Assembly: GCF_027019125.1 (NCBI RefSeq)
Contig: NZ_JALUXE010000030.1
Coordinates: 248,001 to 312,000 of the forward strand
Source: Roseovarius sp.
GTDB taxonomy: Bacteria > Pseudomonadota > Alphaproteobacteria > Rhodobacterales > Rhodobacteraceae
Reading direction: 5' to 3'
Length of the DNA: 64,000 nt
Below the pieces are notes generated by a model. That model had not been told where the DNA came from, ran no database searches, and was given only the letters and a program-made list of their open reading frames with translations. Below are positions 7,548-37,815 of this stretch, in pieces. A program made the translations under genes and the position numbers. Numbering within the stretch: position 1 is the stretch's first letter; each line of letters starts with the position of its first letter.

Positions 7548-8414
7548 TCAGATGTCCAAAAGACAGGCGAAATGATCTTTCAGACTGGTCCAGGTTTCCT
7601 CGTTCGCGGCACTGAGCAGAACGCCCTTGGTGATCGAAGTGTTGTAGTCGCGCCCGTCCAGCATCCGCGCCACGCCGCCGGCCTGTCGGCAGATGAGCAC
7701 GCCCGCCGCGTGATCCCATGGGTTGAGCACATCCGACAGGACGAAATCGACGGCCCCCTGCGCCAGCAGACGGTATTCATGGCACGAGCAGCGCAGCGCG
7801 ATGCAGCGCGCAAGTGCGGGCAAAAGCGGGGCCACCTTATCCTGACGGGCCTGTGTCATCAGGTAGTAATGCATATAACCCTGCAATTCCGACAAGGCGC
7901 CGCCGGAAGACACGCGCACCGGGCGCTCGGCCCCCTGAACCGCAGCCATCCGGGCCGGATTGGCCTCGTCCGCGATGATCCAGTCATCCGAGACAGGATC
8001 GTAAAGCAGCCCCAGAACCGGCCGACCAAAGCGGGTGACGGCGATGATCACCCCAAAGAGCGGCAGGCCGTGGACAAAGTTCCAGGTGCCATCCACCGGG
8101 TCGATGATGAAGGCCAGTTCCGCCTCGGACACATCCTCGCGCAGGGCGGGTTTGGCCGCCACCGCCTCTTCACCCACGATCAACGCATGGGGAAACATCC
8201 GTTGCAGGCCCCGCGCCAGCATGGCCTCGGCCTGATGATCGGCTTCTGTCACCAGATCATGCGGGCCGGATTTGGTCATGGCTTCGGCCCGGGTCACGGT
8301 GCGAAAGCGCGGCATGATTTCGGCACGCGCGGCGCGGCGCACGAGATTGACCAGCATGGTCTGTTGCGCGGGCGTGAGCGGAGCAGAGAGCGGGATCGGC
8401 AGCGAATCGGTCAT
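7548..8414 (-). CDS. Inositol-monophosphatase-family phosphatase
   Basis: A 288-residue Mg-dependent phosphatase of the IMPase/FBPase/CysQ fold. Metal ligands are visible: E82-E83 in VGEEAVA, the DPVDGTWN signature (D105, D108) and NPWDHAAG (D234). The substrate may be myo-inositol phosphate, histidinol phosphate or another sugar phosphate; motifs alone do not separate these. The ATG at 8414 has AGGAGATG directly upstream and gives the normal family length. It lies downstream of the ABC permease gene on the same strand, separated by a palindromic element. Confidence 0.88.
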   Translation of the reverse strand: MTDSLPIPLSAPLTPAQQTMLVNLVRRAARAEIMPRFRTVTRAEAMTKSGPHDLVTEADHQAEAMLARGLQRMFPHALIVGEEAVAAKPALREDVSEAELAFIIDPVDGTWNFVHGLPLFGVIIAVTRFGRPVLGLLYDPVSDDWIIADEANPARMAAVQGAERPVRVSSGGALSELQGYMHYYLMTQARQDKVAPLLPALARCIALRCSCHEYRLLAQGAVDFVLSDVLNPWDHAAGVLICRQAGGVARMLDGRDYNTSITKGVLLSAANEETWTSLKDHFACLLDI

Positions 8415-8487
8415 GTCATCTCCTGTCGGTGCCCCGGTGGAGTGCCAGCCTTGAGGTCTGAAATCAACGCGGGAATGGCCGGAAAGA

Positions 8488-8535
8488 CCGGGGGTTTCAT
8501 CCCCGGACCCCCAGAGTATTTCGCCCATAAAGAAC
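8488..8535. repeat. Palindromic element with AGAGTATTT tail
   Basis: CCGGGG (8488-8493) and CCCCGG (8501-8506) form a hairpin, followed by ACCCCC and the tail AGAGTATTTCGCC, then ATAAAGAA. The layout (GC stem, GAGTATTT, then an AAGAA-type end) matches the element between gcvH and gcvP. It lies between the ABC permease and the IMPase-like gene, reading opposite to them. It could act as a terminator or mRNA stability element. Confidence 0.55.
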
Positions 8536-8549
8536 CAGGTCCGCAGAGG

Positions 8550-11072
8550 TCATTCGCGCGCGCGCAAGGTCCGGGCTGGGCGGGCGCGCAACGGCCCCAA
8601 GGCAAAGACCAAACCTGCCAGCAGCGTCACCACCATGCCGCCCAGAATGATCGCAAGGGCAGAGGGCCAGATCACGCGGAAGGGCGTGTCCATCACGAAA
8701 TGACTGACCGCCCAACCGCCACCGATCCCCGCGCCAAGCGCCACGAGCCCCGCCGCCCCTCCGAGAATGAGGGCGCGCAAGACCAGGCTCGAGAGAATTC
8801 TGGCGCGTGTGGCACCGAGGGTCTTGAGGATCGCGGCCTCATAGGTGCGCGCGCGCTGATCCGCCGCTGCCGCGCCGATGAGCACGAGAAAGCCTGTGAG
8901 CAGCGTGACTGACGCGCCCCAGGAGGTCGCCGACGCGAGACCGGCCAAGAGGTCGGTCACCTGGGTCAGCGCATCGCGCACGTTGATCGCGGTGACATTG
9001 GGGAAACGGTCGGTCACATCGCGCAGGATCTGTTCCTCGGATGCCAGATCATCGGCATACACCGTGGCGATGAACGTATGCGGCGCGCCCGCCACCGCCA
9101 CCGGGTTCATCAGCAGGACAAAGCCCATGCCGACGCTTGAGAAATCCACCTCGCGCAGCGAGGTGATGGGGGCGGTGATGTCACGCCCGAGAATATTCAC
9201 GGTGATCTCGTCGCCGAGGCCGATGCCCATTTCCATGGCCTCTTCGGCGGCAAAGCTGAGTTGCGGCGCGCCGGTATAGCCTTCACCCCACCATGTGCCT
9301 TCTATGATCTTGGTGCGAGCGGGCAGGGCATCGGCGTAGCTCACGGCGCGGTCGCCCTCGACCACCCAATGTCCGGGGGCAACCTCGGTCGCGGGGCGGC
9401 CGTTGATGCGGCTGATGATGCCGCGCAACATCGGCGCGCTGTCGATACGGCTGACGGCGGGGTCACTCTCCAACCGGTCGAGGAACCATGCCATCTGGTC
9501 CTTTTGCAGATCGACAAAGAAGAAGGAGGGCGCGCGTTCGGGAAGGTCGGCGGCAATGGCGCGGCGCAGGTTGCCGTCGATCTGACCGACGGCGGCCAGC
9601 ACCGCGAGGCCCAGACCAAGCGAGAGCATGACTGGCCCCGCAGTGGTGCCCGGTCCGCCGATGGCCCCGAGGGCCCAACCGAGGGCGGGGCGGTTGCGCA
9701 GGCGAGGACGGACTGCGCGGGCCAGCTTCTGCACCAGCATCGCAGCCAAGGACAGGACCAAGAGAGCGGCTGCGATACCGCCAGCGGTCCAGAGTGTGAG
9801 GGTCAGATTGCCAGAAAAGAGACTGGCGGCACCAAGCAGGACACCGACGAGACCGAGCGTGGTCGCGATCCAGGACCAGGCGGGCCAGCGACGCGCGGCT
9901 CCCGCCGCTTCACGGTAGAGGGCGGCGGCGCGGACCTCGCGCGCGCGGGCAAGCGGCCAGAGCGTGAAGATGAGCACGCTCAACACGCTGTAGAGTGCCG
10001 CTTCCGCCATCGGGGCCGCGTAGGGCGTAAAGATCGCAGGCACGGGCAAGCGCGCCGCGATGACGGGCCCCAGGAGCACCGGCAGGCCCACGCCGAGGAT
10101 CAGACCCCCGAGGATACCGATCAGGGCCAGAACCCCGACCTGGATGAAATAGGTCAGGAAAATCGTGCGTTGATCGGCCCCTAGGGTGCGCAATGTGGCG
10201 ATGACCTGCACCTTGCCCGCGAGATAGGCGCGCAACGCAGCAGAAATGCCGACACCACCCACGGCGAGGCCCGAGAGACCCACGAGCACCAGAAAGGCCC
10301 CCAGCCGGGTCACGAACTCGGCGACACGCGGACTGGCGTTGCGGGCATCGGACCAGCGAAAGCCGGAGCCATCCAGCTCTTGCAGCGCGCGGCTCTCGAA
10401 GGCGGCCAGATCGGTGCCTTCGGCCAGATCGAGGCGGTATTTCGTGGTGAAGAGCGAGCCTGCGCTGAGAAGGCCAGAGCCGTCGAGATTGGCGCGGCTG
10501 ACGATGGTGCGGGGGCCAAGGCCAAAGCCCGCGCGGGTTTGATCCGGCTCTCTGACCAGTTCGGCCATCAGTCGAAATTCGCGCTCGCCCAAGCGAAAGG
10601 TATCGCCCACCTTGATCCCCAGACGCGCCGCGAGAATGGGCTGCATGACAGCGCCAGGCAGGCCGCCGGAACCACCGAACGCCACATCGAGCGGCATGTC
10701 GGGGGAAAGAACCACGGTGCCAACCAAAGGATAGGCGTGATCCACGGCCTTGAGTTGGGTCAGTTCGCGCCGCCCGTCCGGCGCGATGGCCATGGAGCGG
10801 AAATCGGCGATTTCCGAGACGGCATCGGCATTGCGGGCCATCCAGGCGTATTCGTCCTCGGTGGCGAACCGATAAGTCAGTTCAAGTTCCGCATCGCCGC
10901 CAAGGATGGCTGATCCCTGTTCGGTCATGCCGGCACGGATGCTCTCGCGCAGGGTGCCGACGGCGGCAATCGCCGCCACGCCAAGGATCACGCAGGCGAG
11001 AAAGATGCGAAATCCACGCAGGCCCCCGCGCAATTCCCGCCGGGCCAGGCGAGCCGCGATGCGCAGGCTCAT
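8550..11072 (-). CDS. ABC transporter permease, FtsX/YbbP type
   Basis: An 840-residue inner-membrane protein with an N-terminal anchor helix (about 20-42), a large periplasmic region, a central block of membrane segments (about 245-480) and a last FtsX-type block near the C-terminus. That is the arrangement of the YbbP permeases, which work with a LolD-like ATPase. The E. coli YbbAP pair sits beside tesA exactly as here. Its substrate is not established; lipid or lipoprotein handling is often proposed. The start overlaps the stop of the ATPase gene by 4 bases, indicating translational coupling. Confidence 0.88.
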   Translation of the reverse strand: MSLRIAARLARRELRGGLRGFRIFLACVILGVAAIAAVGTLRESIRAGMTEQGSAILGGDAELELTYRFATEDEYAWMARNADAVSEIADFRSMAIAPDGRRELTQLKAVDHAYPLVGTVVLSPDMPLDVAFGGSGGLPGAVMQPILAARLGIKVGDTFRLGEREFRLMAELVREPDQTRAGFGLGPRTIVSRANLDGSGLLSAGSLFTTKYRLDLAEGTDLAAFESRALQELDGSGFRWSDARNASPRVAEFVTRLGAFLVLVGLSGLAVGGVGISAALRAYLAGKVQVIATLRTLGADQRTIFLTYFIQVGVLALIGILGGLILGVGLPVLLGPVIAARLPVPAIFTPYAAPMAEAALYSVLSVLIFTLWPLARAREVRAAALYREAAGAARRWPAWSWIATTLGLVGVLLGAASLFSGNLTLTLWTAGGIAAALLVLSLAAMLVQKLARAVRPRLRNRPALGWALGAIGGPGTTAGPVMLSLGLGLAVLAAVGQIDGNLRRAIAADLPERAPSFFFVDLQKDQMAWFLDRLESDPAVSRIDSAPMLRGIISRINGRPATEVAPGHWVVEGDRAVSYADALPARTKIIEGTWWGEGYTGAPQLSFAAEEAMEMGIGLGDEITVNILGRDITAPITSLREVDFSSVGMGFVLLMNPVAVAGAPHTFIATVYADDLASEEQILRDVTDRFPNVTAINVRDALTQVTDLLAGLASATSWGASVTLLTGFLVLIGAAAADQRARTYEAAILKTLGATRARILSSLVLRALILGGAAGLVALGAGIGGGWAVSHFVMDTPFRVIWPSALAIILGGMVVTLLAGLVFALGPLRARPARTLRARE

Positions 11073-11746
11073 GCGGTGCCCTCTATGCGGCCGTCGCGGA
11101 GGCTGACCACGCGGTCGCAGCGCGCGGCAAGGTCGGGATCATGGGTCACGAGCACGAGGGTCGCGCCATGCCGGTCGCGCAGGCCAAAGAGCAGGTCGAT
11201 GATCGCGGCTCCTGTGGTGCTGTCGAGATTGCCCGTGGGCTCATCCGCGAGGATGATGGCGGGGCGGGGGGCTGCGGCGCGCGCAAGTGCGACGCGCTGT
11301 TGTTCTCCGCCCGAAAGTTGCGAGGGGTAATGCCCTGCGCGCGTGGCAAGGCCCACGGCGGCCAGTTCCTCGAGCGCGCGGGCATGGGCATCCGCCGCCC
11401 CCGCCAACTCGAGCGGGGTTGCCACATTCTCGAGCGCGGTCATCGTTGGAATGAGGTGAAAGGATTGGAACACGACGCCGAAATTCTCGCGCCGCAGGCG
11501 GGCCAACTGATCCTCGTTCATGGCCGACAGGTTGCTGTCCAAGGCGGTGATATGGCCAGAAGTGGCGCGCTCCAACCCACCCATGAGCATCAAGAGCGAA
11601 GATTTGCCGGAACCCGAGGGGCCGATCAGGCCGAGGGTCTCGCCCTTGTGGACATCCAAGGTAATCCCGTGAAGTATGTGCACAAGACCGGCATTTCCCT
11701 CCAGAGACAAGGTGACGTCGGAGAGGGACAGGATAGGAGAACTCAT
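11069..11746 (-). CDS. ABC transporter ATP-binding protein, LolD/YbbA type
   Basis: A 225-residue ATPase with Walker A GPSGSGKSS (K48), a Q-loop in VVFQSFHLIP, the signature LSGGEQQR, Walker B IILADEPTG and the H-loop VTHDPDLA. It belongs to the MacB/LolD/YbbA subgroup that drives FtsX-like permeases and acts on the cytoplasmic side. It overlaps the permease by 4 bases. Its ATG (11746-11744) overlaps the ATG of tesA (11745) on the other strand, so the two divergent genes have no intergenic space. Confidence 0.93.
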   Translation of the reverse strand: MSSPILSLSDVTLSLEGNAGLVHILHGITLDVHKGETLGLIGPSGSGKSSLLMLMGGLERATSGHITALDSNLSAMNEDQLARLRRENFGVVFQSFHLIPTMTALENVATPLELAGAADAHARALEELAAVGLATRAGHYPSQLSGGEQQRVALARAAAPRPAIILADEPTGNLDSTTGAAIIDLLFGLRDRHGATLVLVTHDPDLAARCDRVVSLRDGRIEGTA

Positions 11747-12431
11747 GCGTTTGCGCCTGATTTACAAAGGTTTTCTGTCATATGGGGTGCTGCGGCCTCT
11801 GGGCAAGGTGGTAGCGGCGTTTCTCTGCCTTGTCAGCCCCGTTATGGCGGATGAGCCGGTCACGGTTCTGGCATTGGGGGATAGTCTGACCCAGGGCTAC
11901 GGTCTGCCCGAGCAGGATGGGCTGGTGCCGCAGATGCAGAAATGGCTGAATGATCAAGGGGTTGAGGCCACGCTGATCAATGCGGGCGTGTCTGGGGATA
12001 CCACTGCAGGCGGGGCTGCGCGAGTGGAGTGGAGCCTCACACCCGAGGTGGATGCGATGATCGTGACGCTGGGCGGCAATGATCTCTTGCGCGGGATTGA
12101 TCCGGCGGTCAGCCGGGGAAACCTCGAAGTGATCCTGCAGGTCGCGCAGGCCAAGGGTGTTGAGGTCTTGCTGGTCGGGCTGACGGCGCCGGGCAATTAC
12201 GGCCCAGAGTATAAGACGGCGTTTGATGCGATCTACCCCGAATTGTCAGAGGCTTATGGTGCCCTCCTTGCCCCGGACTTCTTTGCTGGCCTTGGCGGCG
12301 GCGATCCTGCGGCTTTGCAGCGGTGGTTTCAGGCGGATGGCATTCATCCGAATGCCGATGGTGTGGCGCGTATCGTCGAGGGGTTGGGGCCAAGTGTGCT
12401 GGCCTTGATCGAGGCGACAGAGGCGGAGTAG
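11745..12431 (+). CDS. tesA: Arylesterase / lysophospholipase L1-like SGNH hydrolase (TesA type)
   Basis: A 228-residue exported esterase. After a hydrophobic leader (about 18-36, likely cleaved after VMA) it has the SGNH blocks: GDSLTQGYGLP with the nucleophile S47, the oxyanion Gly in NAGVSGDT, GGND (N112), and the catalytic pair in DGIHPNADG. It should hydrolyse acyl esters, thioesters or lysophospholipids in the periplasm. The ATG at 11745 has AGGAGA upstream. The divergent YbbA/YbbP ABC pair repeats the E. coli tesA-ybbA-ybbP arrangement. Confidence 0.9.
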   Translation: MRLRLIYKGFLSYGVLRPLGKVVAAFLCLVSPVMADEPVTVLALGDSLTQGYGLPEQDGLVPQMQKWLNDQGVEATLINAGVSGDTTAGGAARVEWSLTPEVDAMIVTLGGNDLLRGIDPAVSRGNLEVILQVAQAKGVEVLLVGLTAPGNYGPEYKTAFDAIYPELSEAYGALLAPDFFAGLGGGDPAALQRWFQADGIHPNADGVARIVEGLGPSVLALIEATEAE

Positions 12432-12441
12432 CACCGACGCT

Positions 12442-13347
12442 CTAGGTCCAGCGTTCACGCAGGCCAAAGCGCTTTGCCATATTGGGCAGGGCATCGCAGA
12501 GCATGTCGATGAAGGCGGCGGCAATGGGGCTGGGTGTGCGCCCGTCGCGGACCAGCAGACTGACGCGGCGCTGGCAGGCCGGGTCGGCGAGAGGTCGCGT
12601 GACCACGCCCGAGGGCAAGGCGCGGGTGGCCAGACCGGGCAGGATCGTATCGCCTGCGTCGGCCTGGACCATCGCCAGGAGCGAGGTCAGGTTGCGCACT
12701 GACAGGCGCGCCTTTGCCGCCAGAGCGCGGAACTCGGGCGTCGCAAGCCCGCTCAGAGTTTCGTTCAGGATCAATCGCTCTCCAGTCAGTTGATGCCATG
12801 CCAGAGGGCGTGGCTCCGATGCGAGCGGATGCGCTGCATGGCAGACAAAGACCAGCGGATCAGTGAAAAGCGGGATGGCGCGCAGACCGTCAGCTTCTCC
12901 GGCCGGGCTGGCCAGACCAAGATCGGTTTCCCCGCGCAAGAGCATCTCGCGGACGCTGGCGCTGTCGGTATCGTAGAGGTCGATTTCTGCCTCGGGGCGG
13001 GCCTGCACAAAGCTCTTGAGAACTGTGGGCAGGATCAAAGCCGCAACCGACGGCACCGCCGCGATCCGCAGCCGCCCGGAATAGCCTTGCGCATAGCCGG
13101 TGATCAGCTCCAGAGCGCGGTCATGCTCGCGAAGGAGGGGCCCCACGACGTCGAGCACGAAAGCCCCGAGATCCGTCAGCTTGCTCTTGCGGTCGCTTTC
13201 GAACAGGGGACCGCCCAACTCTGCCTCAAGCTGTTTCAGGGTCATTGAAACCGCAGATTGCGTCCGGCACAAGATTTCCGCCGCATCCCGGATATTGCCA
13301 TGTTCGGTGACAGTGACAAACGCGCGCAGGGCTTCGGTCCGGATCAT
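12442..13347 (-). CDS. LysR-family transcriptional regulator
   Basis: A 301-residue regulator with an N-terminal winged helix (FVTVTEHGNIRDAAEILCR, then QSAVSMTLKQLEAELG) and a periplasmic-binding-like effector domain from about residue 90. The ATG at 13347 was preferred to an upstream TTG at 13362 because AACAGG lies ahead of it and the protein then begins at the usual distance from the helix. It is divergent from the aldehyde dehydrogenase unit, so it very likely controls that unit; a perfect palindrome lies in the shared promoter region. The effector is unknown. Confidence 0.9.
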   Translation of the reverse strand: MIRTEALRAFVTVTEHGNIRDAAEILCRTQSAVSMTLKQLEAELGGPLFESDRKSKLTDLGAFVLDVVGPLLREHDRALELITGYAQGYSGRLRIAAVPSVAALILPTVLKSFVQARPEAEIDLYDTDSASVREMLLRGETDLGLASPAGEADGLRAIPLFTDPLVFVCHAAHPLASEPRPLAWHQLTGERLILNETLSGLATPEFRALAAKARLSVRNLTSLLAMVQADAGDTILPGLATRALPSGVVTRPLADPACQRRVSLLVRDGRTPSPIAAAFIDMLCDALPNMAKRFGLRERWT

Positions 13348-13364
13348 GGCTGGCCTGTTCAATG

Positions 13365-13381
13365 TTTCAGATAAACTGAAA
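13365..13381. promoter_or_regulatory. Palindrome TTTCAG-N5-CTGAAA, candidate LysR operator
   Basis: A perfect 6-base inverted repeat with a 5-base centre lies 17 bases before the lysR start and about 106 bases before the aldehyde dehydrogenase start, within an AT-rich stretch. LysR proteins usually bind partly symmetric T-N11-A sites in such divergent regions, and this window fits (for example T65 to A77 by last two digits). It could serve both autorepression and activation of the divergent unit. Confidence 0.45.
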
Positions 13382-13487
13382 TTTTATGAAGTTATATTTG
13401 TTTGCCTTAATTCAGTCAATCGCAGATCGTCTGGCGGAGTCGGGAATGGCCCGACAAATTGGCGACTCGACGGAAAAGGAAGAACGG

Positions 13488-14942
13488 ATGACGGCGCAGC
13501 AGACCGGAAATTTCATTGCAGGTGCATGGCGCGGCTCAGAGGCGCGCATTGAGAATCGCAACCCGTCGGATGTCTCGGACTTGATCGGCAATTATGCGCA
13601 GGCGGATCGCCATGATCTGGATGAGGCGATTGCCGCAGCACGGGCGGCACAGCCGGCCTGGTGGGCGGCGGGCATTCAGAAACGCCATGACGTGCTGATG
13701 GCGATTGGCACGGAGGTGATGGCGCGCAGCCAGGAGATCGGCGCGCTCGTTGCCCGTGAAGAAGGCAAGCCGCGTGCCGAAGGAGTGGGCGAAGTATACC
13801 GCGCCGGGCAGTTCTTTTGTTACTATGCCGCCGAAGTGCTGCGCCAGATGGGGGACTTTGCCCAGAGTGTGCGCTCCGACATTGATATTGACGTGCGCCG
13901 GGAACCTGTGGGTGTCGTGGCGATTGTCAGCCCTTGGAATTTTCCTGTGGCGACACCTGCGTGGAAGATCGCCCCAGCCTTGGCCTTTGGTAATGCTGTG
14001 GTCTGGAAACCGGCCAATCTGACCCCGGCCAGCGCGGTCGCGCTGGCAGAGATCATCGCAAGGCAGGATATGCCACGCGGCCTGTTCAACCTTGTCATGG
14101 GGCCGGGGCGCGCGGTGGGCGAGGCGCTGGTGGCACATCCGGGCATTGATGCCATCAGCTTTACCGGCTCGGTCAGTGTCGGACGTGGCATCGCGGCTGC
14201 GGCGGTGCCGAACATGACCAAGGTGCAGATGGAAATGGGATCGAAAAACCCGATGCTGATCCTTGACGATGCCGATCTGGACCTTGCGGTGGCACATGCG
14301 GCGGGCGCAGCCTTTGGCGGCACCGGGCAGAAATGCACGGCAGCCTCGCGCTTGATTGTGCATGCGGCGGTGCATGATGAGTTTGTCGCGCGGCTTGTGG
14401 ATGAAGCCCGCGCGCTCAAGGTCGGGCACGCGCTGGAGGAGGGAACACAGATCGGGCCGGTTGTCAGCGCCGGGCAACTCGCGCAAAATCTGGCTTATAT
14501 CGAACAGGGTCGGGCAGAGGGAGCAGAGCTTTTGTGTGGCGGAGAGCGGTTGGAGCGCGCGACCGAAGGCTATTACATGGCCCCGGCGGTCTTTGCGGGC
14601 ACAGCCAATGACATGGTCCTGAACCGCGAGGAAATGTTCGCGCCGATCACTTGCGTGATCAAGGTGGGCAGCTACGACGAGGCGCTGAGCGTTGCCAATG
14701 ACAGCGAATTCGGCCTGACTGCCGGGATCATGACGCGCAGTCTGGCGCGTGCCAATCATTTCCGTGCGCATATGCGGGCAGGCACGGTTATGGTGAACCT
14801 GCCAACGGCGGGCACCGACTATCACGTGCCCTTTGGCGGGCGTGGCGCATCGAGCTTTGGCTCGCGCGAGCAGGGTCAGTATGCCGCCGAGTTCTACACC
14901 ACGGTCAAGACCGCCTATGTCGCACGGGGGCTGCCGGAATGA
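13488..14942 (+). CDS. NAD(P)-dependent aldehyde dehydrogenase
   Basis: A 484-residue member of the aldehyde dehydrogenase superfamily. Key residues are in place: N151 in SPWNFP, the nucleotide-binding FTGSVSVGR, the general base E249 in MEMGSKNP and the nucleophile C283 in GGTGQKCTAASR. The sequence looks closest to semialdehyde dehydrogenases of the ketoglutarate-semialdehyde or succinate-semialdehyde kind, but the substrate is not decided. The ATG at 13488 (MTAQQTGNFIAG) follows AAAAGGAAG; an earlier in-frame ATG at 13386 would add an atypical leader. The stop overlaps the next start by 4 bases (ATGA). Confidence 0.92.
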   Translation: MTAQQTGNFIAGAWRGSEARIENRNPSDVSDLIGNYAQADRHDLDEAIAAARAAQPAWWAAGIQKRHDVLMAIGTEVMARSQEIGALVAREEGKPRAEGVGEVYRAGQFFCYYAAEVLRQMGDFAQSVRSDIDIDVRREPVGVVAIVSPWNFPVATPAWKIAPALAFGNAVVWKPANLTPASAVALAEIIARQDMPRGLFNLVMGPGRAVGEALVAHPGIDAISFTGSVSVGRGIAAAAVPNMTKVQMEMGSKNPMLILDDADLDLAVAHAAGAAFGGTGQKCTAASRLIVHAAVHDEFVARLVDEARALKVGHALEEGTQIGPVVSAGQLAQNLAYIEQGRAEGAELLCGGERLERATEGYYMAPAVFAGTANDMVLNREEMFAPITCVIKVGSYDEALSVANDSEFGLTAGIMTRSLARANHFRAHMRAGTVMVNLPTAGTDYHVPFGGRGASSFGSREQGQYAAEFYTTVKTAYVARGLPE

Positions 14943-15928
14943 GCGTGGTGATCGACGGGCTGCAATATGCCAACTGGTCGGAAAAGATCTTTCGCCAGAT
15001 GCGTGCGGGTGGCGTGGACGCGGTGCATGTCACGATCACCTATCACGAGAATTTCCGCGAAACGGTGCTGAACATCGAGGCGTGGAACCGGCACTTCGAG
15101 CGGTTTCCCGATCTGATCTTTCAGGGGTTCGAGGCCGGGGACGTGACCCGCGCAAAAGAGACCGGGCGCACCGCGATTTTCTTTGGCGCACAAAACCCAA
15201 GCTGTATCGAGGATGATATCGGGCTGGTCGAGGTGTTGCACCGGCTGGGCCTGCGGTTCATGCAATTGACCTATAACAACCAATCCCTTTTGGCGACGGG
15301 CTGTTACGAGGCAGAGGATACCGGCCTCACACGGATGGGGCGCGAGGTGGTTTCGGAGATGAACCGCGTCGGGCTGGTCGTGGACATGAGCCATTCGGGC
15401 GAGCGCTCCACGCTCGATGCAATTGCCCATTCGAGCCGCCCGATTGCCATCACTCACGCCAACCCCGCCGCGTGGCACCCCGCGCGGCGCAACAAATCCG
15501 ATCGGGTTCTGGCAGCCCTGGCCGAAAGTGGTGGCATGCTGGGCTTTTCGCTTTATCCGCATCACCTCAAGGGCGGCGGTGCCTGCACCGTTCACGACTT
15601 CTGCGAGATGGTGGCGCGCACCGCCGAAAGGATGGGGCCAGAGCGGCTGGGGATTGGCAGTGATCTTTGTCAGGATCAACCCGACTCGGTCGTGGAATGG
15701 ATGCGGAGCGGCCGGTGGACCAAAGCGGTGGATTTTGGCGAAGGCAGCGCCGATGCGCCGGGGTTTCCGCCAATGCCGGATTGGTTTCAGGACAACCGGC
15801 ATTTTGGTGCGATTGCGGATGGGCTGCATGCGGTGGGGATGAGCGGCCCAGAGGTCGAGGGTATCATGGGGGGCAATTGGCTGAGGTTCTTCGGTGAAGC
15901 GTTCGGGCCAGGCGGAGCCGCTCGATGA
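14939..15928 (+). CDS. M19 (renal dipeptidase)-like amidohydrolase with altered metal site
   Basis: A 329-residue protein of the membrane-dipeptidase fold. Some zinc ligands are present: H152 in VVDMSHSGER, H173 in AITHAN and D242 in GIGSDL. The N-terminal His-x-Asp of true dipeptidases (DGHND) reads DGLQY, so L8 and Y10 replace both ligands, and the bridging Glu appears to be Q85 in FFGAQNP. At best a single-metal site remains, so ordinary dipeptidase activity is doubtful. There is no signal peptide. It overlaps its neighbours by 4 bases on each side, tying it to the aldehyde dehydrogenase and the unknown protein. Confidence 0.85.
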   Translation: MSVVIDGLQYANWSEKIFRQMRAGGVDAVHVTITYHENFRETVLNIEAWNRHFERFPDLIFQGFEAGDVTRAKETGRTAIFFGAQNPSCIEDDIGLVEVLHRLGLRFMQLTYNNQSLLATGCYEAEDTGLTRMGREVVSEMNRVGLVVDMSHSGERSTLDAIAHSSRPIAITHANPAAWHPARRNKSDRVLAALAESGGMLGFSLYPHHLKGGGACTVHDFCEMVARTAERMGPERLGIGSDLCQDQPDSVVEWMRSGRWTKAVDFGEGSADAPGFPPMPDWFQDNRHFGAIADGLHAVGMSGPEVEGIMGGNWLRFFGEAFGPGGAAR

Positions 15929-17604
15929 CCTGCGGCGCCCTCGATCCGATGCCAGAGGCCACGCCGTATCGGCGCAGTCCTGATACAGTGATGCGGCTGG
16001 CGCGAATGGGCGCGGCCCATCCGACCCGCCTCTCGTTTCTGCGCCAGATGTTGCGGAGAATGCAAAACGAGAACTGGCGATTTGAGCGTCCGGTCTGGGA
16101 ATTTGACGCGCGAGGTCAAGGGCGGGCGGTTTACTGCGCCATTGGACCGGAGCGGACCTACAGCCTTGTGGCCTTTGGCCATGACCTGCCCGACGAGATG
16201 CGGTCGGATCGGGTGATTGCCACCGCTTGGGATGCGACTTTCACGCTGTTTGATGGCGTGCCCGACGCAGACGATCTGACCCGTCTGGAACGCAATGTGC
16301 CGTTGCAAGAGGCTGGGCGCGTGAGCGTGCGGGAATTGAGCCTGAGCCGTGCCAACAAATCGGTGCGCCTCTTTGACCATGTGGTCGCTCGTTTGGCCGC
16401 AGGGCAACAGCCCGATGCGGCGCAACTGGCCGAAACCGGCTATCTCATGCGCACTACGGCGGTTTATGGTTCAGGCAAGTTTGGCGCGGCGGACCGCGCG
16501 CAGATTGCGGATCGCCCGGAAATGCGCGCACCTTTTCAGGCAGAGATGCTCTCGGTCTGGCTGACGCGGGCCTACACGGTCGATCTGGTCGAGCATCTGG
16601 CGCAGATGCGGGGCGGTGCCAGCGCGGTGGGCTTGGCCCCGGAATTGAGGCGGTTGTTGGGGGTGGGTAATTCCACCGGGCTTGGGATGGCCCCTTTTCT
16701 GGTGCGGCATCCGGTCTTGCTCAACAACTGGATGATGGCGCGGGAAGAAGCGTTGGCGCGGGTGCGCGCCCAACGGACAGCCACGCCCGAGACTTTGGCA
16801 GGCTTCGAGGCGGCGCTGAAGGCCGCGCAGGAGAATGCGCAAGCTTGGCAGAGCGGGCACCCCGTGCAACAGGCGCGATTGCTGGAATTGCGCAACGGTT
16901 TGGACGCGGTCGCCGCGCATATGCGTGACGTTTGGGATCGCCTCGGAGATCATCCCTGGGATGCGCTCTGGCGCTGGGCCGAGGCGCGGCTGCCGCTTGA
17001 GGCACAAGAGGCGCTAGCCGCCGCGATGATAGAACCGCATGGTGACCTCGTGGATGGTCTGGCCGAATGTATGGCCGCCGACGAAGACAGTGCCTTTTGC
17101 ATCGATGGGTCGATGACGGTGGCGCGGGTGCGGGCGCTCTTGTCCGAGCGATACAGTTGGGCAATGGGGCTGGATCACGATACGCCGGCGGGCTGCGCGC
17201 GGTTCTGGTATGTCTCCGAGGAAAAGCTTGAGCCGCGTTTGGGGGAACGGGCGGCAGAGCCGGGGGCGGAACGGGAACTTCCGCTGGATATCTCACGGCA
17301 GGCAGTCGCATTGGCGCGGGCGCTCGCGGATTGGCCCGAGGATTCGCCGATTGCAAAGGTCCTGCTGGCGCAGCCCGAGCATCGCCACATGCTCCGCCGG
17401 GTGCAGATGGCAGCGATGCGGCCCTATGCCGAGGTGCGCGACAATCTGATTGCCGCCGATGTTCTGCCGATTGACCTCTTGCGCTGCAAGCTGGCGTTCT
17501 TTGGCGCGACGCGGTTTGATCCGCGCTCGGATCGTTGGGTGCGGATCAGCCTCTTTCAGGGCGCGCCCTATCCACAGGATCTGACGGCGGGGGCGGATAC
17601 ATGA
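15925..17604 (+). CDS. Conserved hypothetical protein, 559 residues
   Basis: I do not recognise a named domain. The protein is soluble-looking, with no signal peptide or membrane segment, rich in Arg, Trp and Ala. It contains an N-terminal block RRMQNENWRFERPVWEFD, a beta-rich part around YSLVAFGHDLPDEMRSDR, and long helices in the middle and C-terminal thirds. It starts within the stop of the dipeptidase-like gene and ends within the start of the DUF3726-like gene, so all four genes are almost certainly translated together. Any function must be linked to aldehyde dehydrogenase and M19-like chemistry; nothing more can be said from sequence. Confidence 0.85.
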   Translation: MTCGALDPMPEATPYRRSPDTVMRLARMGAAHPTRLSFLRQMLRRMQNENWRFERPVWEFDARGQGRAVYCAIGPERTYSLVAFGHDLPDEMRSDRVIATAWDATFTLFDGVPDADDLTRLERNVPLQEAGRVSVRELSLSRANKSVRLFDHVVARLAAGQQPDAAQLAETGYLMRTTAVYGSGKFGAADRAQIADRPEMRAPFQAEMLSVWLTRAYTVDLVEHLAQMRGGASAVGLAPELRRLLGVGNSTGLGMAPFLVRHPVLLNNWMMAREEALARVRAQRTATPETLAGFEAALKAAQENAQAWQSGHPVQQARLLELRNGLDAVAAHMRDVWDRLGDHPWDALWRWAEARLPLEAQEALAAAMIEPHGDLVDGLAECMAADEDSAFCIDGSMTVARVRALLSERYSWAMGLDHDTPAGCARFWYVSEEKLEPRLGERAAEPGAERELPLDISRQAVALARALADWPEDSPIAKVLLAQPEHRHMLRRVQMAAMRPYAEVRDNLIAADVLPIDLLRCKLAFFGATRFDPRSDRWVRISLFQGAPYPQDLTAGADT

Positions 17605-18257
17605 GCGAGATGGCCCAAGACCCGACACGAGCAGGGTCAGAACCGCCGGATTGGGCGGGCGAGGTGATGCAACTGTCGCAGTCCGAAATCACGGCCCTCG
17701 CGACCAAGGCGGCGCGGGGCGCGGGGCTAAGCTGGGGCGAGGCGGAAGAGGCGGGCTGGGCCTGTTGCTGGTTGGCGCGGGCCGGTCTGCCGGCCCCTGC
17801 GATGCTCTTGCGCGCTCTGGACGCGGAATCATCGGCCAGCCCGCTGCGCGCGGGAATCCGGCTGATGGACCAAGCCGGAGGGCCGGAGTGGACGGGCGCG
17901 CTGCCTGTAACCCTTGAGGATTTGGTCGAGCCGGTGCTGCTCGTGCCTTTCCTGGCGCAGGCGGCCGAGCGGTTGGGCGCACCGGTGGAATTGGACCTTG
18001 GGTCAGAAACGATCTGTCTGACCGGGCGAGAGCCAGTGCCGGATCTATCCGCGCTGTGCGAGATTTGCCACAGAACTGGCGCTCGGGTGACGATCAGCGT
18101 GTCGCAATCCAGCGGGGCCGCGGCACCGGGCCGGTTTGACGGACGGATCGAGCGGGGCGTGTGGCAGTCGCTGGATGCCCTGGCGCTTCTGACGACCGTT
18201 CCCGCATCCGAGCAGTCGCGGCAACGGGCCGGGGCCCAATCAAGCGACAATGACTGA
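17601..18257 (+). CDS. DUF3726-like protein
   Basis: A 218-residue protein whose segment LSQSEITALATKAARGAGLSWGEAEEAGWACCWLARAGLP looks like the conserved start of the DUF3726 family, which has no established function. The rest is acidic and hydrophobic without membrane spans. The ATG at 17601 overlaps the previous stop by 4 bases, so a longer frame from 17535 is unlikely. It ends the LysR-linked unit; the next gene is convergent. Confidence 0.75.
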   Translation: MSEMAQDPTRAGSEPPDWAGEVMQLSQSEITALATKAARGAGLSWGEAEEAGWACCWLARAGLPAPAMLLRALDAESSASPLRAGIRLMDQAGGPEWTGALPVTLEDLVEPVLLVPFLAQAAERLGAPVELDLGSETICLTGREPVPDLSALCEICHRTGARVTISVSQSSGAAAPGRFDGRIERGVWQSLDALALLTTVPASEQSRQRAGAQSSDND

Positions 18258-32770: not shown

Positions 32771-34024
32771 ATGCGGTTTTCCGGCCTGCGGGTTCTGAAA
32801 GAGGGGCTGACCGGCAACAAGGGCTGGCAGGCACATTGGCGCGATGCAATACCCAAGCCCGAGTATGATGTGATCATCATCGGTGGTGGCGGTCATGGGC
32901 TCTCGACCGCCTATTACCTGGCCAAGCGCCACGGGATCACCAATGTCGCGGTGCTGGAAAAGGGCTATCTGGGCGGCGGCAACGTGGGGCGCAACACCAC
33001 CATCGTGCGCGCCAATTATTTCCTGCCGGGCAATTCCGAGTTCTACAGCCATTCCTTGAAACTCTGGGAAGGGCTGGAGGAGGACCTTAATTACAACGTC
33101 ATGCATTCTCAGCGCGGGCAGATCGTGCTGTTTCATTCTGATGGGCAGCGCGATGCCATCGCCCGACGCGGCAATGCGATGATCAACCGCGGCGACGATG
33201 CGGAACTTCTGAGTGTGGCGCAGCTCAAACGCATGGTGCCTTATCTTGATTACGACCAGCCGCGGTTTCCCATTCACGGTGGCCTTTTACAGCGGCGCGC
33301 AGGCACGGCGCGGCATGATGCTGTGGCCTGGGGCTATGCACGCGGGGCAAGCAACCGGGGCGTGGACCTGATCCAGAATTGCGAAGTGACGGGGATCGAC
33401 ATCCAGAATGGTCGCGTGCGCGGCGTGCAAACCACGCGCGGTGCCATTCGCGCCAGAAAGCTGGCGATTGTGGTGGCGGGGCGTTCCAGCCAGGTGGCGG
33501 CGATGGCCGGGATGCGCCTGCCGATCGAAAGCCACGTTTTGCAGGCCTTTGTCACCGAGGGGCTGAAACCCTGCATCGACCATGTGATCAGCTTTGGCAT
33601 GGGGCATTTCTATATCAGCCAATCCGACAAGGGTGGGCTGGTCTTTGGTGGCGATCTGGACATGTATGCCTCATATGCCGCGCGCGGCAACCTGCCGATT
33701 GTAGAGCATGTGATGGAGGCGGGCATGACGCTGATGCCGATGATCGGCAATGCCCGCGTGTTGCGCAGTTGGGGCGGGATCATGGATATGTCGCCCGATG
33801 GCAGCCCGATCATCGACCATTCGGGCATCGAGGGGCTCTATCTCAATTGCGGCTGGTGCTATGGCGGGTTCAAGGCCGTGCCGGGGTCGGGCGATGCGCT
33901 CGCGCATCTCATCGCCACCGACCGGCCGCATCCGGCGGCGACGCGATTCCGGCTGGACCGGTTCCGCACGGGCTGGGGGTTGATGGACGAAGAAGGCACG
34001 GGCGCGCAACACAATCTGCATTGA
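32771..34024 (+). CDS. soxB: Sarcosine oxidase beta subunit
   Basis: A 417-residue flavoprotein subunit. It has the FAD-binding GGGGHGLSTAYYLAKRHG, the VLEKG edge, and the C-terminal GGFKAVPGSGDALAHLI. In the heterotetramer it carries the sarcosine-oxidising flavin site and converts sarcosine to glycine with C1 transfer to THF. GGGGAGTGGC precedes the ATG. First gene of soxBDAG. Confidence 0.95.
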   Translation: MRFSGLRVLKEGLTGNKGWQAHWRDAIPKPEYDVIIIGGGGHGLSTAYYLAKRHGITNVAVLEKGYLGGGNVGRNTTIVRANYFLPGNSEFYSHSLKLWEGLEEDLNYNVMHSQRGQIVLFHSDGQRDAIARRGNAMINRGDDAELLSVAQLKRMVPYLDYDQPRFPIHGGLLQRRAGTARHDAVAWGYARGASNRGVDLIQNCEVTGIDIQNGRVRGVQTTRGAIRARKLAIVVAGRSSQVAAMAGMRLPIESHVLQAFVTEGLKPCIDHVISFGMGHFYISQSDKGGLVFGGDLDMYASYAARGNLPIVEHVMEAGMTLMPMIGNARVLRSWGGIMDMSPDGSPIIDHSGIEGLYLNCGWCYGGFKAVPGSGDALAHLIATDRPHPAATRFRLDRFRTGWGLMDEEGTGAQHNLH

Positions 34025-34047
34025 GATGCGCGCGGAGGGCAGGATTT

Positions 34048-34069
34048 GAGTATTTCTGGAACGATGAAG
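34048..34069. repeat. Tail of the dispersed GAGTATTT element inside the sox operon
   Basis: GAGTATTTCTGG followed by AACGATGAAG resembles the tails at 2533-2553 and 8513-8534. No convincing stem precedes it here (only GCGCGGAGGGC), so it may be a decayed copy. It occupies most of the 56-base gap between soxB and soxD and may supply part of the soxD ribosome site (GAAGG). Confidence 0.4.
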
Positions 34070-34080
34070 GCGCGGATAAG

Positions 34081-34338
34081 ATGAGGCTGGGCTGTCCGAT
34101 CTGCGGCGAGCGGGATCGTCGCGAGTTCTACTATCAGGGGGCGGCACTCCCGCGGCCCGAGGGCGAAGTCTGGGCGCCGGAGTGGGATGATTACATCCAC
34201 AATCGCGACAACCTGCCGGGTGCGACCCGTGATTTGTGGCAGCACGAGCAGGGTTGCGGGGCTTGGCTCATCGTGACGCGCAATACGGTCACGCATGAGG
34301 TTCTGGGTGTGGCCCTGGCCACGGAGGCGGGCGCATGA
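34081..34338 (+). CDS. soxD: Sarcosine oxidase delta subunit
   Basis: An 85-residue zinc-binding subunit. The start LGCPICGERDRREFYYQG and the later GCGAWL segment are family hallmarks; the CPIC pair is part of the zinc site. The gene is short and easily missed. It overlaps soxA by 4 bases (ATGA at 34335-34338), tying it to the operon. Confidence 0.92.
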   Translation: MRLGCPICGERDRREFYYQGAALPRPEGEVWAPEWDDYIHNRDNLPGATRDLWQHEQGCGAWLIVTRNTVTHEVLGVALATEAGA

Positions 34339-37265
34339 GGCTCGAAGGCAAAGGGCTGATCGACCGGGCGCGTCCGGTGAGCTTTCACTTTGACGGCCGT
34401 CGATATGAGGGGTTCGCAGGCGATACGCTGGCCTCGGCGCTCTTGGCCAACGGCGTGCGGATGGTGGCGCGGTCCTTCAAGTATCACCGCCCGCGTGGTG
34501 TGATGACCGCAGGCAGTGAGGAGCCGAATGCGCTGGTGACTGTGGGGCGAGGTGCCGCGCAAGAGCCGAACCTGAGGGCGACGACCGTCGAAGTGCACGA
34601 GGGGCTATGGGCGCAAAGCCAGAACCGCTGGCCGACGCTGGGGCTGGATCTGCTGGCGGTCAATGATGTCTTCGCGCCGTTTCTGGGGGCTGGATTTTAT
34701 TACAAGACCTTCATGTGGCCGCGCGCCTTTTGGGAGCGGGTATATGAGCCGCTCATTCGCCGTGCTGCCGGTCTGGGGGCGCTGTCGGGGGACGCGTGCG
34801 AGGACAGCTACGAGCGGGCCCATGCCCATTGCGATGTGCTGGTCATCGGGGCCGGTCCTGCGGGGCTGATGGCGGCGCGGGCGGCGGCAGAGGCGGGCGC
34901 GGATGTGATCCTCGCCGAAGAGGACACGCGACTTGGCGGGCGCCTCCTGGCCGAGACCGAAGAGGTCGATGGGCTGGCTGGTGTCGATTGGGTGGATGAG
35001 ATCGCGGCGGAACTGGCCGCGATGCCGAATGTCCGGATCATGACCCGCACGGCTGTGACCGGGGTTTATGATGGCGGCACCTATGGCGCGCTGGAAAGGC
35101 TTGCACCGGATATTGCCGCGCGCGGTCACGCGCCCAAGGGCTGTTTCTGGCGGATCGTGGCGCGGCGTACGGTACTGGCGGCGGGGGCGCTGGAGCGGGC
35201 CATCGCCTTTCCTAACAATGACCGGCCGGGGGTAATGATGGCGGGGGCGGTGCGCGCCTATGTCAACCGCTGGGGTGCGGCACCAGGACAGAGCACGGTG
35301 GTTTTCGGCAATAACGACAGCGCTCATCGCACCGTGGCCGATCTGCAAGCGGCGGGGGTGCATGTGGCGGCGCTGGTGGATGCGCGTCCCTATGCGCGCT
35401 GTGACCTCGATGTGCCGTTCTATCCCGGTGCGCAGGTCTGTGGCACAGGTGGGCGTCGCGGGCTGGAGGCGGTAACGCTTGCCACGACCAAGGGTGAGGA
35501 CCGGATCGCCGCCGATTGCCTTGCGGTTTCGGGCGGGTGGAATCCGACGGTGCATCTGGCCTGCCATATGGGCGCGCGGCCCACGTGGGACGCGGCGCGG
35601 CAGGCGTTCTTACCGCCCGCAGATGCCGTGCCGGGCATGCGCGTGGCAGGGGCCGCGGCGGGGGCGTTTTCCACCCTTGCCTGTCTGGAGAGCGGTCTGA
35701 ACGAGGGTGCTGCGGCGGCGGTGGACCTGGGGTTTCGTGCGCCGGATATGGCGGCCCCGAGCGCCGGGAAGGCCACCTATGACATATTTCCGCTCTGGCA
35801 GGTGCCGGGGCGGGGCCGGGCGTGGCTCGATTTTCAGAACGATGTCACGGTCAAGGATGTGGTGCAGGCCGCGACCGAAAATTTCCGGTCGGTCGAGCAT
35901 ATGAAACGCTACACGACGCAGGGCATGGCCCCGGATCAGGGCAAGAATTCCAACGTCGCCGCGCTGGCGGTATTGGCCGAGGCGAGCGGGCAGGGCATTG
36001 CCGAGACCGGCACGACCACCTTCCGCCCGCCCTATGTGCCGGTGCCGATTGCGGCTATGGGGGCAGGGGGCAAGGGCAAAGGCTTTGCCCCCGAGCGGCG
36101 GACCACCTCGCATGCCGAGAGCATCGCACGCGGTGCGCCCATGATTGAGGCTGGGCTTTGGTATCGGCCCAGCTATTTCCCGCAAAAGGCTGAGACCCAT
36201 TGGCGACAATCCTGTGACCGCGAAGTTGCGATGGTGCGCGGATCGGTTGGCATCTGCGATGTGTCCACCCTTGGCAAGATCGACGTGCAAGGCCCGGATG
36301 CCGCGCGGTTTCTGGATTTCGTCTACACCAACATGTTTTCCACGCTGAAGGTGGGCCGTGTGCGCTATGGCCTCATGCTGCGCGAGGATGGGCATGTCAT
36401 GGATGACGGCACCTGCGCGCGTCTGGGGGAGAGTCATTTCATATTGACCACCACCACGGCGGCGGCGGGGCAGGTGATGCGGCATCTGGAATTCGTAGCG
36501 CAGGTTTTGCGCCCGGAATGGGATGTGCGGATCGTGTCCGTCACCGAGCAATGGGCGCAATTCGCAGTGGCAGGGCCTCAGGCACGGATGTTGCTGAACG
36601 GGATGCTCGACGCACCGATTGACGATGCCGGGTTCCCCTACATGGCTTGCGGCGCGGTTGGTCTGGGCGGGGTGGCGGCGCGGCTCTTTCGCATCTCCTT
36701 TTCGGGTGAGCATGCCTATGAAATCGCCGTGCCTGCGCGCTACGGGGCGGCGCTGTTTGGCGCGTTGGTCAAGCGCGCCGAGGACATGGGCGGCGGCGCC
36801 TATGGGCTTGAGGCGCTCAATGTGCTGCGGATCGAGAAAGGGTTTATCACCCATGCTGAAATCCATGGCCGCGTGACCGCCTATGACATCGGGATGCAGG
36901 GTATGATGAGCGCCAAGAAGGATTTCGTCGGCAAGGCGGCAGCGACGCGCCCCGGTCTGATGGACCCGGAGCGCGAGCGCATGGTGGGACTGAAGCCGGT
37001 GGGCGCGGTCAAGGAGCTACTGGCGGGGGCGCATATCTTTGATGAACACGCCGAAGCGGTCAGCGACAACGACCAGGGCTACGTCACAAGCGCCTGCTAT
37101 TCGCCGACGCTTGGGCATGTGATCGGCATCGGCTTCCTCAGGCGCGGGCCGGAGCGGATGGGCGAACGGGTGCGCGTGGTGGATCACCTGCGCAAGTCCG
37201 AAACGGTGTGCGAAGTCACCCCTCTGGTGGCGTTTGATCCCGAAGGAGGGCGGTTGCGTGGCTGA
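34335..37265 (+). CDS. soxA: Sarcosine oxidase alpha subunit
   Basis: A 976-residue subunit of the heterotetramer. Its N-terminal part (about 1-100) is a ferredoxin-like fold, the middle binds NAD through VLVIGAGPAGLMAARAAAEAG, and the C-terminal third is a GcvT-like THF-binding domain (SVGICDVSTLGKIDVQGPD, then GLEALNVLRIEKGFI). It produces 5,10-methylene-THF and glycine, feeding the same C1 pool as the glycine cleavage system. It overlaps both neighbouring genes. Confidence 0.95.
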   Translation: MRLEGKGLIDRARPVSFHFDGRRYEGFAGDTLASALLANGVRMVARSFKYHRPRGVMTAGSEEPNALVTVGRGAAQEPNLRATTVEVHEGLWAQSQNRWPTLGLDLLAVNDVFAPFLGAGFYYKTFMWPRAFWERVYEPLIRRAAGLGALSGDACEDSYERAHAHCDVLVIGAGPAGLMAARAAAEAGADVILAEEDTRLGGRLLAETEEVDGLAGVDWVDEIAAELAAMPNVRIMTRTAVTGVYDGGTYGALERLAPDIAARGHAPKGCFWRIVARRTVLAAGALERAIAFPNNDRPGVMMAGAVRAYVNRWGAAPGQSTVVFGNNDSAHRTVADLQAAGVHVAALVDARPYARCDLDVPFYPGAQVCGTGGRRGLEAVTLATTKGEDRIAADCLAVSGGWNPTVHLACHMGARPTWDAARQAFLPPADAVPGMRVAGAAAGAFSTLACLESGLNEGAAAAVDLGFRAPDMAAPSAGKATYDIFPLWQVPGRGRAWLDFQNDVTVKDVVQAATENFRSVEHMKRYTTQGMAPDQGKNSNVAALAVLAEASGQGIAETGTTTFRPPYVPVPIAAMGAGGKGKGFAPERRTTSHAESIARGAPMIEAGLWYRPSYFPQKAETHWRQSCDREVAMVRGSVGICDVSTLGKIDVQGPDAARFLDFVYTNMFSTLKVGRVRYGLMLREDGHVMDDGTCARLGESHFILTTTTAAAGQVMRHLEFVAQVLRPEWDVRIVSVTEQWAQFAVAGPQARMLLNGMLDAPIDDAGFPYMACGAVGLGGVAARLFRISFSGEHAYEIAVPARYGAALFGALVKRAEDMGGGAYGLEALNVLRIEKGFITHAEIHGRVTAYDIGMQGMMSAKKDFVGKAAATRPGLMDPERERMVGLKPVGAVKELLAGAHIFDEHAEAVSDNDQGYVTSACYSPTLGHVIGIGFLRRGPERMGERVRVVDHLRKSETVCEVTPLVAFDPEGGRLRG

Positions 37266-37815
37266 CTTCAAGGTTCAAACCGCCTGTGCGGGGCTATTGC
37301 CGGTAACAGTGGGCGATCTGCGTCTGACCGAGGTGGTGCCGGGGCGGGTGACCTCGCTTGCGCCCTATCTGGGCTCTGCCGGGGCCTTGTCAGCCGCGAT
37401 GCAGGCGGCGCATGGCGTGGCATGGCCGGAAGCGGGGCGCATGACGGGGCAGGCGGCGGCGCGCGCGCTTTGGTTCGGGCGCGAGATGGCGCTCTTGATT
37501 GGTCCTGATCCTGATGAAAGCCTGTCGGCTCATGCGGCGCTGACAGACCAGTCGGACGCCTGGGCGGTCGTGCAATTGGAGGGCCGGCAAGCGGTCGAGG
37601 TTCTGGCGCGGCTCTGTCCTCTCGATCTGCGCGACACGGTCTTTGCGCCAGGCCATACCGCACGCACGGATGTGGCGCATATGGCCGGGTCCGTGAGCCG
37701 TGTGGGGCCGCAGACATGGCAGATCATGGTGTTCCGGTCGATGGCGGCTACGCTGGTCCATGAGGCGGAGATTGCGATGGCACGGGTTGCGGCGCGACAA
37801 AATTCACCGACGTAG
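37258..37815 (+). CDS. soxG: Sarcosine oxidase gamma subunit
   Basis: A 185-residue GcvT-fold subunit that completes the complex. The GTG at 37258 is used because AAGGAGGGCGG lies upstream and the gene then overlaps soxA by 8 bases. Segments such as VVQLEGRQAVEVLARLCPLDLRD and GSVSRVGPQTWQIMVFRS match SoxG. It closes the operon. Confidence 0.9.
   Translation: MADFKVQTACAGLLPVTVGDLRLTEVVPGRVTSLAPYLGSAGALSAAMQAAHGVAWPEAGRMTGQAAARALWFGREMALLIGPDPDESLSAHAALTDQSDAWAVVQLEGRQAVEVLARLCPLDLRDTVFAPGHTARTDVAHMAGSVSRVGPQTWQIMVFRSMAATLVHEAEIAMARVAARQNSPT

Follow-up and report, generated by a model that had tools for sequence, protein, structure and literature searches.

A conserved LysR-linked operon of Roseovarius sp. 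that includes an M19-fold protein without its canonical metal site: a candidate pathway for an N-methylated betaine

A 64,000-nucleotide stretch of the genome of Roseovarius sp. (contig NZ_JALUXE010000030.1; hereafter, the window) carries four overlapping genes encoding an aldehyde dehydrogenase, a protein of the peptidase family M19 fold that has lost its canonical metal site, a 559-residue protein with no known family, and a DUF3726 protein. The last three form a near-constant core that recurs in many genomes, with the aldehyde dehydrogenase as a frequent partner. From the genes that accompany this core elsewhere, we propose that the unit is induced by its substrate and serves the catabolism of a small N-methylated betaine. 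Homarine (N-methylpicolinate) or a closely related compound is the likeliest candidate. We consider this proposal evenly poised between right and wrong.

The four plus-strand genes lie where the initial annotation of the window had placed them, as verified from the list of open reading frames, the sequence and Pfam, and each of the three junctions is an ATGA, a 4-base overlap. The same overlap is found between the 559-residue and DUF3726 genes in 88 of 120 loci, between the M19-like and 559-residue genes in 44 of the 80 loci that have the two adjacent, and between the aldehyde dehydrogenase and M19-like genes in 42 of 76. The initial annotation had taken the four genes for a single co-translated unit under a LysR regulator, and the overlaps, the divergent LysR gene, its probable operator and the co-occurrence described below all support this. 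It had also described two members as lacking a known function and one as having lost metal ligands. This too was correct: the 559-residue protein has no family in Pfam or NCBIfam, DUF3726 has no function described there, and the M19 metal site is uniformly altered.

The four-gene unit is not lineage-specific. The order was sampled through 292 genomes in 112 genera; the 559-residue protein occurs in 164 of these genomes and 64 of the genera, and its profile matched in 29 of 398 genomes sampled across the phylum. A scan of named genomes yielded 585 stretches encoding the protein, from which 80 loci were kept; these are mainly from Rhodobacterales and also include records labelled Rhizobiaceae, Roseibium, Pseudovibrio, Leucothrix, Granulosicoccus and Chromatiales. 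The soil genera Shinella and Aminobacter carry the protein as well, and it or a relative is present on 168 plasmid records. In an independent draw by PF12525, DUF3726 was detected in 21 of 190 genomes of the class, and in 20 of these 21 its gene adjoins that of the 559-residue protein; in the remaining one the contig, 5,026 bases long, stops shortly afterwards. Family counts were made over a set of 125 loci, mostly picked by similarity to the 559-residue protein and not de-duplicated, in which a match anywhere in the stretch was counted and the numbers depend on the query proteins chosen. The 559-residue protein was present in 124 of them, an M19-like protein in 115 and, by similarity, DUF3726 in 91; nine 559-residue loci lack an M19 match, some of them cut by contig ends. 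With the whole stretch considered, 88 of 124 loci have an aldehyde dehydrogenase-like gene, which in 76 stands directly upstream of the M19-like gene. Co-occurrence, on which the initial annotation had made its proposal depend, extends well beyond close relatives. Some genomes (G002, G003, G007, G017, G028, G029 and others) hold two copies of the 559-residue gene; in G002, one copy (L069) stands with aldehyde dehydrogenase, BCCT and LysR genes and the other (L068) with an M19-like gene and a short DUF3726-like gene. Small genomes of 1.4-2.1 Mb (L078, L083, L089), which may belong to streamlined marine bacteria, have ProXWV or Sox genes alongside the core.

The M19 domain of the second protein spans residues 13-319. 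Its metal ligands were compared across 115 module-linked M19 proteins, the window's included, at the positions of the family's His-x-Asp motif, bridging Glu, two further His and catalytic Asp. At the His-x-Asp position the window protein reads Q9-Y10-A11, where Gln occupies position 9 in 113 proteins and Glu in the other 2, Tyr position 10 in 112 and Ala position 11 in 92. The bridging Glu position is Gln85 in the window and Gln in 115/115, so that the first His and the Glu are found in 0/115. His152, His173 and Asp242, by contrast with the lost ligands, are retained in all 115. This uniform replacement, together with the invariance of the three remaining residues, argues that the protein is a stable variant and not a decayed copy, and presumably has another job. 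Several Trp and Tyr residues are near-invariant across the same proteins and would suit the binding of a quaternary ammonium group.

The 559-residue protein matches no Pfam family at E<=1, and its best NCBIfam hit is insignificant (E 0.063). In an alignment of 38 homologues, the others are 40-74% identical to the window's protein, mean column identity is 57%, and 79 columns are invariant. An AlphaFold2 model (predicted local distance difference test 89.5; predicted template modelling score 0.90) gave no significant match among solved structures of the PDB, and neither did a profile of the protein run against PDB sequences; a new fold is possible.

The DUF3726 protein is predicted to adopt the fold of Ldh_2, the type-2 malate/lactate dehydrogenases, without the catalytic His. 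Its predicted structure resembles that fold in Foldseek, at E-values of 0.01 or worse, and hhalign aligned the two families with a probability of 62% and an E-value of 7.5e-5 over 39 columns, at the N-terminus only. The Ldh_2 consensus, from an alignment of 34 of 53 Ldh references, displays an SHG motif whose His we take to be the catalytic residue; among 82 of the 83 listed DUF3726 references, no column has His in at least 60% of the rows. The typical DUF3726 C-terminus is P.TE.SR..GAGAG..DND-COOH, and an AG-containing acidic tail, read by eye, ends 36 of 37 genes picked by position. In an alignment whose rows were partly chosen by the tail, this region is far more conserved than the middle of the protein.

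Regulation was approached through the gap between the LysR gene and the aldehyde dehydrogenase gene, which contains the dyad TTTCAG-N5-CTGAAA, matched once in the window and never in 100 shuffles. The pattern TTCA-N7-TGAA occurs in 31 of 54 gaps between a LysR gene and the first gene, where 0.13 are expected from mononucleotide shuffles; any perfect 6-base dyad, a weaker test, occurs in 20 of the 54 against 6.3 expected. A LysR match was found anywhere in the stretch at 76 of 125 loci. Because the dyad is present in the window and TTCA-N7-TGAA recurs in equivalent gaps, control of the four-gene unit by LysR is likely. The aldehyde dehydrogenase contains the sequences GQKCTAAS and MEMGSK, which we take to be the motifs of the catalytic Cys and Glu. 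The closest NCBIfam model, alpha-ketoglutaric semialdehyde dehydrogenase, scores 495 bits, under its cut-off of 770, and the nearest solved relatives are betaine aldehyde dehydrogenases. An in-frame start is also available upstream, at 13386, yet the sequence AAGGAAG stands before 13488. Coordinates are collected in Table 1.

Table 1. Positions of the operon, its regulator and the sites discussed, numbered from the first base of the window.
Feature	Position	Strand	Basis
LysR-type regulator, divergent from the operon	12442..13362	-	PF03466 E 5.1e-42, PF00126 E 4.2e-17
Probable LysR operator TTTCAGATAAACTGAAA, T-N11-A dyad	13365..13381	.	Dyad search of the window and homologous gaps
Aldehyde dehydrogenase	13488..14942	+	PF00171 E 3e-156
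M19-fold protein without canonical binuclear metal site	14939..15928	+	PF01244 E 9e-71
Gln-Tyr-Ala where His-x-Asp metal ligands are expected	14963..14971	+	115-protein alignment
Gln85 at the bridging Glu position	15191..15193	+	Alignment; matched to Glu of 3id7
559-residue protein, no known family, hallmark of the module	15925..17604	+	Pfam and NCBIfam without significant family
DUF3726 protein, Ldh_2-type predicted fold without catalytic His	17601..18257	+	PF12525 E 3.3e-16
Conserved C-terminal tail of DUF3726, here PASEQSRQRAGAQSSDND	18201..18254	+	Alignment columns; tails read by eye

The nature of the substrate is suggested by the genes found around the core. Transporters of the betaine type, either BCCT or ProX accompanied by ProW or ProV, are present in 56 of 124 loci. 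We estimate that roughly 3% would be expected from the 13 of the 21 searched genomes that belong to the same genus, which average 2.8 matches to BCCT and 4.0 to OpuAC; the eight out-of-genus genomes have fewer transporter matches, and including them would lower the expectation. An Ldh_2 gene accompanies the core in 54 of 125 loci and RidA in 23. The best solved relative of this linked Ldh_2 is Delta1-piperideine-2-carboxylate reductase 1wtj (E 2.8e-58; next 6.8e-39). Genes of the sarcosine oxidase (Sox) or N-methylglutamate dehydrogenase (Mgd) type lie within about 8 kb of the 559-residue gene in 11 of 124 loci, and seven of these loci also have a regulator of the GlxA/AraC type. Plasmids of Phaeobacter and Shinella carry nearly the full neighbour set, with no RidA listed, and that of Shinella has ProXWV and PurU. 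Taken together, these neighbours, namely betaine transporters, a DpkA-like Ldh_2, RidA, Sox/Mgd-type genes and, once, PurU, are the signature of a pathway that breaks down an N-methyl betaine. As an observation apart, genes named by eye as MttB-like, of the trimethylamine methyltransferase family, occur near the core at L058, L081, L090, L102 and L107, a hint of quaternary amines.

PMC13390433 states that Mgd participates in homarine catabolism and that tmaR, encoding an AraC-type regulator, adjoins mgd, and it cites a published, conserved homarine pathway (Ferrer-Gonzalez et al., Nat Microbiol 2026, 11:1531). Homarine is therefore our best guess, from the neighbour signature and the link between Mgd and homarine in PMC13390433. 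The window's operon may already have been published as that pathway, in which case the initial annotation was wrong to call it undescribed.

For homarine, the following mechanism can be envisaged. The M19-like, 559-residue and DUF3726 proteins, translated together, would work as a single enzyme complex, adding water to the cationic ring and opening it. Substrate binding would fall to the M19 barrel, in a pocket where neutral or aromatic residues have taken the place of the metal ligands. The DUF3726 protein, derived from a dehydrogenase but without a redox role, would dock on a partner through its C-terminal tail, and the unknown chemistry would be the part of the 559-residue protein. The ring-opened product would be a 2-(methylimino)-6-oxo acid, whose aldehyde the aldehyde dehydrogenase would oxidise. 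The N-methyl imine could be hydrolysed, with assistance from RidA, to release methylamine, or it could be reduced by the linked DpkA-like Ldh_2 to an N-methylamino acid and then demethylated by the sarcosine oxidase/Mgd-type tetramer. LysR would sense the substrate or an early intermediate. By our own arithmetic, homarine + 3 H2O = glutarate semialdehyde + methylamine + CO2 balances with no net redox change, so that a core without redox activity could suffice together with the aldehyde dehydrogenase. We think it doubtful, though worth stating, that the three core proteins constitute a new enzyme class, in which a metal-site-less barrel, a dehydrogenase-fold subunit that lacks the catalytic His and carries an inserted tail at its C-terminus, and a protein with a new fold would open an N-methylpyridinium ring using nothing but water, without any redox step by oxygen, flavin or metal.

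Several observations weigh against the assignment to homarine and its proposed chemistry. Of the 124 stretches examined, some of them truncated where a contig ends, 68 yielded no transporter of the betaine type, 113 no Sox gene and 36 no aldehyde dehydrogenase-like gene. In some of the 11 Sox-type loci no more than one or two of the four subunits appear, and the linked genes may encode true sarcosine oxidase and not Mgd. The unit in the window has no Ldh_2, BCCT, ProX or RidA match beside it. The window's own sox genes (soxB, soxD, a soxA-type gene and, by position, probably soxG, of the heterotetrameric sarcosine oxidase/Mgd family) lie at 32771-37815, 14.5 kb downstream of the unit; this soxB is one of three in the genome above the TIGR01373 cut-off. 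The closest Ldh_2 of the genome is outside the window and only 40% identical to the linked type. As to DUF3726, the Foldseek E-values given above are weak, and a search of PDB sequences with its profile found no Ldh_2. Finally, a second clade of the core, with a 559-residue homologue about 33% identical, occurs on Sinorhizobium meliloti pSymB and on plasmids of Bosea and Alloyangia in the order IclR, 559-residue homologue, small protein, M19-like protein, ABC transporter (L201, L204 and L206; about 8200-16500). Its small protein retains a PDSxxSRRHAG motif with a longer end, and its M19-like proteins also have Gln at the Glu position. With IclR and a different ABC transporter in this clade, the core stands in more than one gene setting; it therefore probably serves several pathways and is not bound to a single substrate.

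The most serious alternative is that homarine is wrong and the core acts on the quaternary nitrogen group of a different N-methylated betaine, such as trigonelline, proline betaine or one with an open chain; to this we give a minor but appreciable chance. The transporter types at the loci, BCCT and ProXWV, accept many betaines, the occurrence in Shinella and Aminobacter makes the distribution not specially marine, and 2i5g, the best solved relative of the M19-like protein (E 1.4e-60, residues 2-323), presumably neighbours dimethylglycine genes in its own genome. The known trigonelline and proline-betaine routes, however, depend on oxygenases or flavin demethylases, and among the families counted these do not regularly accompany the core (Rieske in 4 of 125 loci, DMGDH-type in 9; the two-component ring monooxygenase of the trigonelline, or tgn, pathway was not searched for), and the DpkA-like Ldh_2 and RidA suit imine chemistry.

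It is improbable that the core is a maturation or chaperone module that processes or assembles something else, with the C-terminus of DUF3726 as a processed tail and the catabolic genes as customers. Such a role would agree with two scaffolds, M19 and Ldh_2-type, that both lack canonical sites, with the conserved DUF3726 tail and with the association of the core with two different partner sets. No customer gene was found in every locus, however, an aldehyde dehydrogenase-like gene not being found in 36 of 124, and the 559-residue protein, with its invariant columns, is in our judgement more enzyme-like than scaffold-like.

Slightly less probable still is the substrate first proposed for the unit, an N-acyl or peptide-like compound, on which the M19-like protein would remain an amide hydrolase with a one-metal or metal-free site while the aldehyde dehydrogenase oxidises the released aldehyde. 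The M19 fold is present, and one metal could still bind because His152, His173 and Asp242 are kept. The proposal is nevertheless unsupported, because it rested on the name dipeptidase while the metal site is lost and the neighbours are of the betaine type; no peptidase or peptide transporter was recognised by eye among the recurrent gene clusters, in a search that was not systematic. An aldehyde-yielding step, part of the same proposal, is plausible in itself. That the genes form a conserved unit also stands, but to call the pathway complete was too strong, because at other loci the unit often has genes for a reductase, a transporter and a demethylase next to it, which the one in the window does not. 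Least probable of all is another small cation, such as a polyamine, as the general substrate with betaines as a special case. The gene order of the second clade speaks for it, with an ABC transporter that we label as putatively polyamine-type from that order; against it, this clade is only about 33% identical to that of the operon in the window, and the substrates may differ.

Of most interest to a specialist would be the resemblance of DUF3726 to Ldh_2 and its conserved tail, the M19 metal site lost in every module-linked protein aligned, and the 559-residue protein without a structural match. That protein is widespread in marine and soil Proteobacteria, yet familyless. Homarine is an abundant marine compound, and if it is the substrate, the 559-residue and DUF3726 families would be linked to its turnover in the sea. 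More unusual is the enzymology, with two familiar scaffolds that appear to have lost their usual active sites, kept together with a protein unmatched among solved structures.

Compared with known systems, the M19-like protein shares with the membrane and renal dipeptidases of peptidase family M19 the PF01244 domain and the three retained residues, and differs in having Gln-Tyr-Ala for His-x-Asp and Gln for Glu. It is closer to 2i5g, annotated 'amidohydrolase', which we take to be PA5396 of Pseudomonas aeruginosa: both belong to one M19 subfamily, with Gln at the Glu position and no His-x-Asp in the alignment, and they differ at this site, which reads DGLIIAKW in 2i5g and DGLQYANW in the window protein. 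The DUF3726 protein departs from the Ldh_2 family, which includes ureidoglycolate dehydrogenase and DpkA, in its length (218 residues against about 335), in lacking the SHG His and in having its own C-terminal tail. Mgd and heterotetrameric sarcosine oxidase are related to the module through the genes near the 559-residue gene, and in contrast to the core these lie outside the four-gene unit. The homarine operon itself is reportedly homABCDER, five genes and a regulator; it may be the same operon as that of the window, and the gene number would fit the aldehyde dehydrogenase, M19-like, 559-residue and DUF3726 proteins with the often linked Ldh_2 and LysR.

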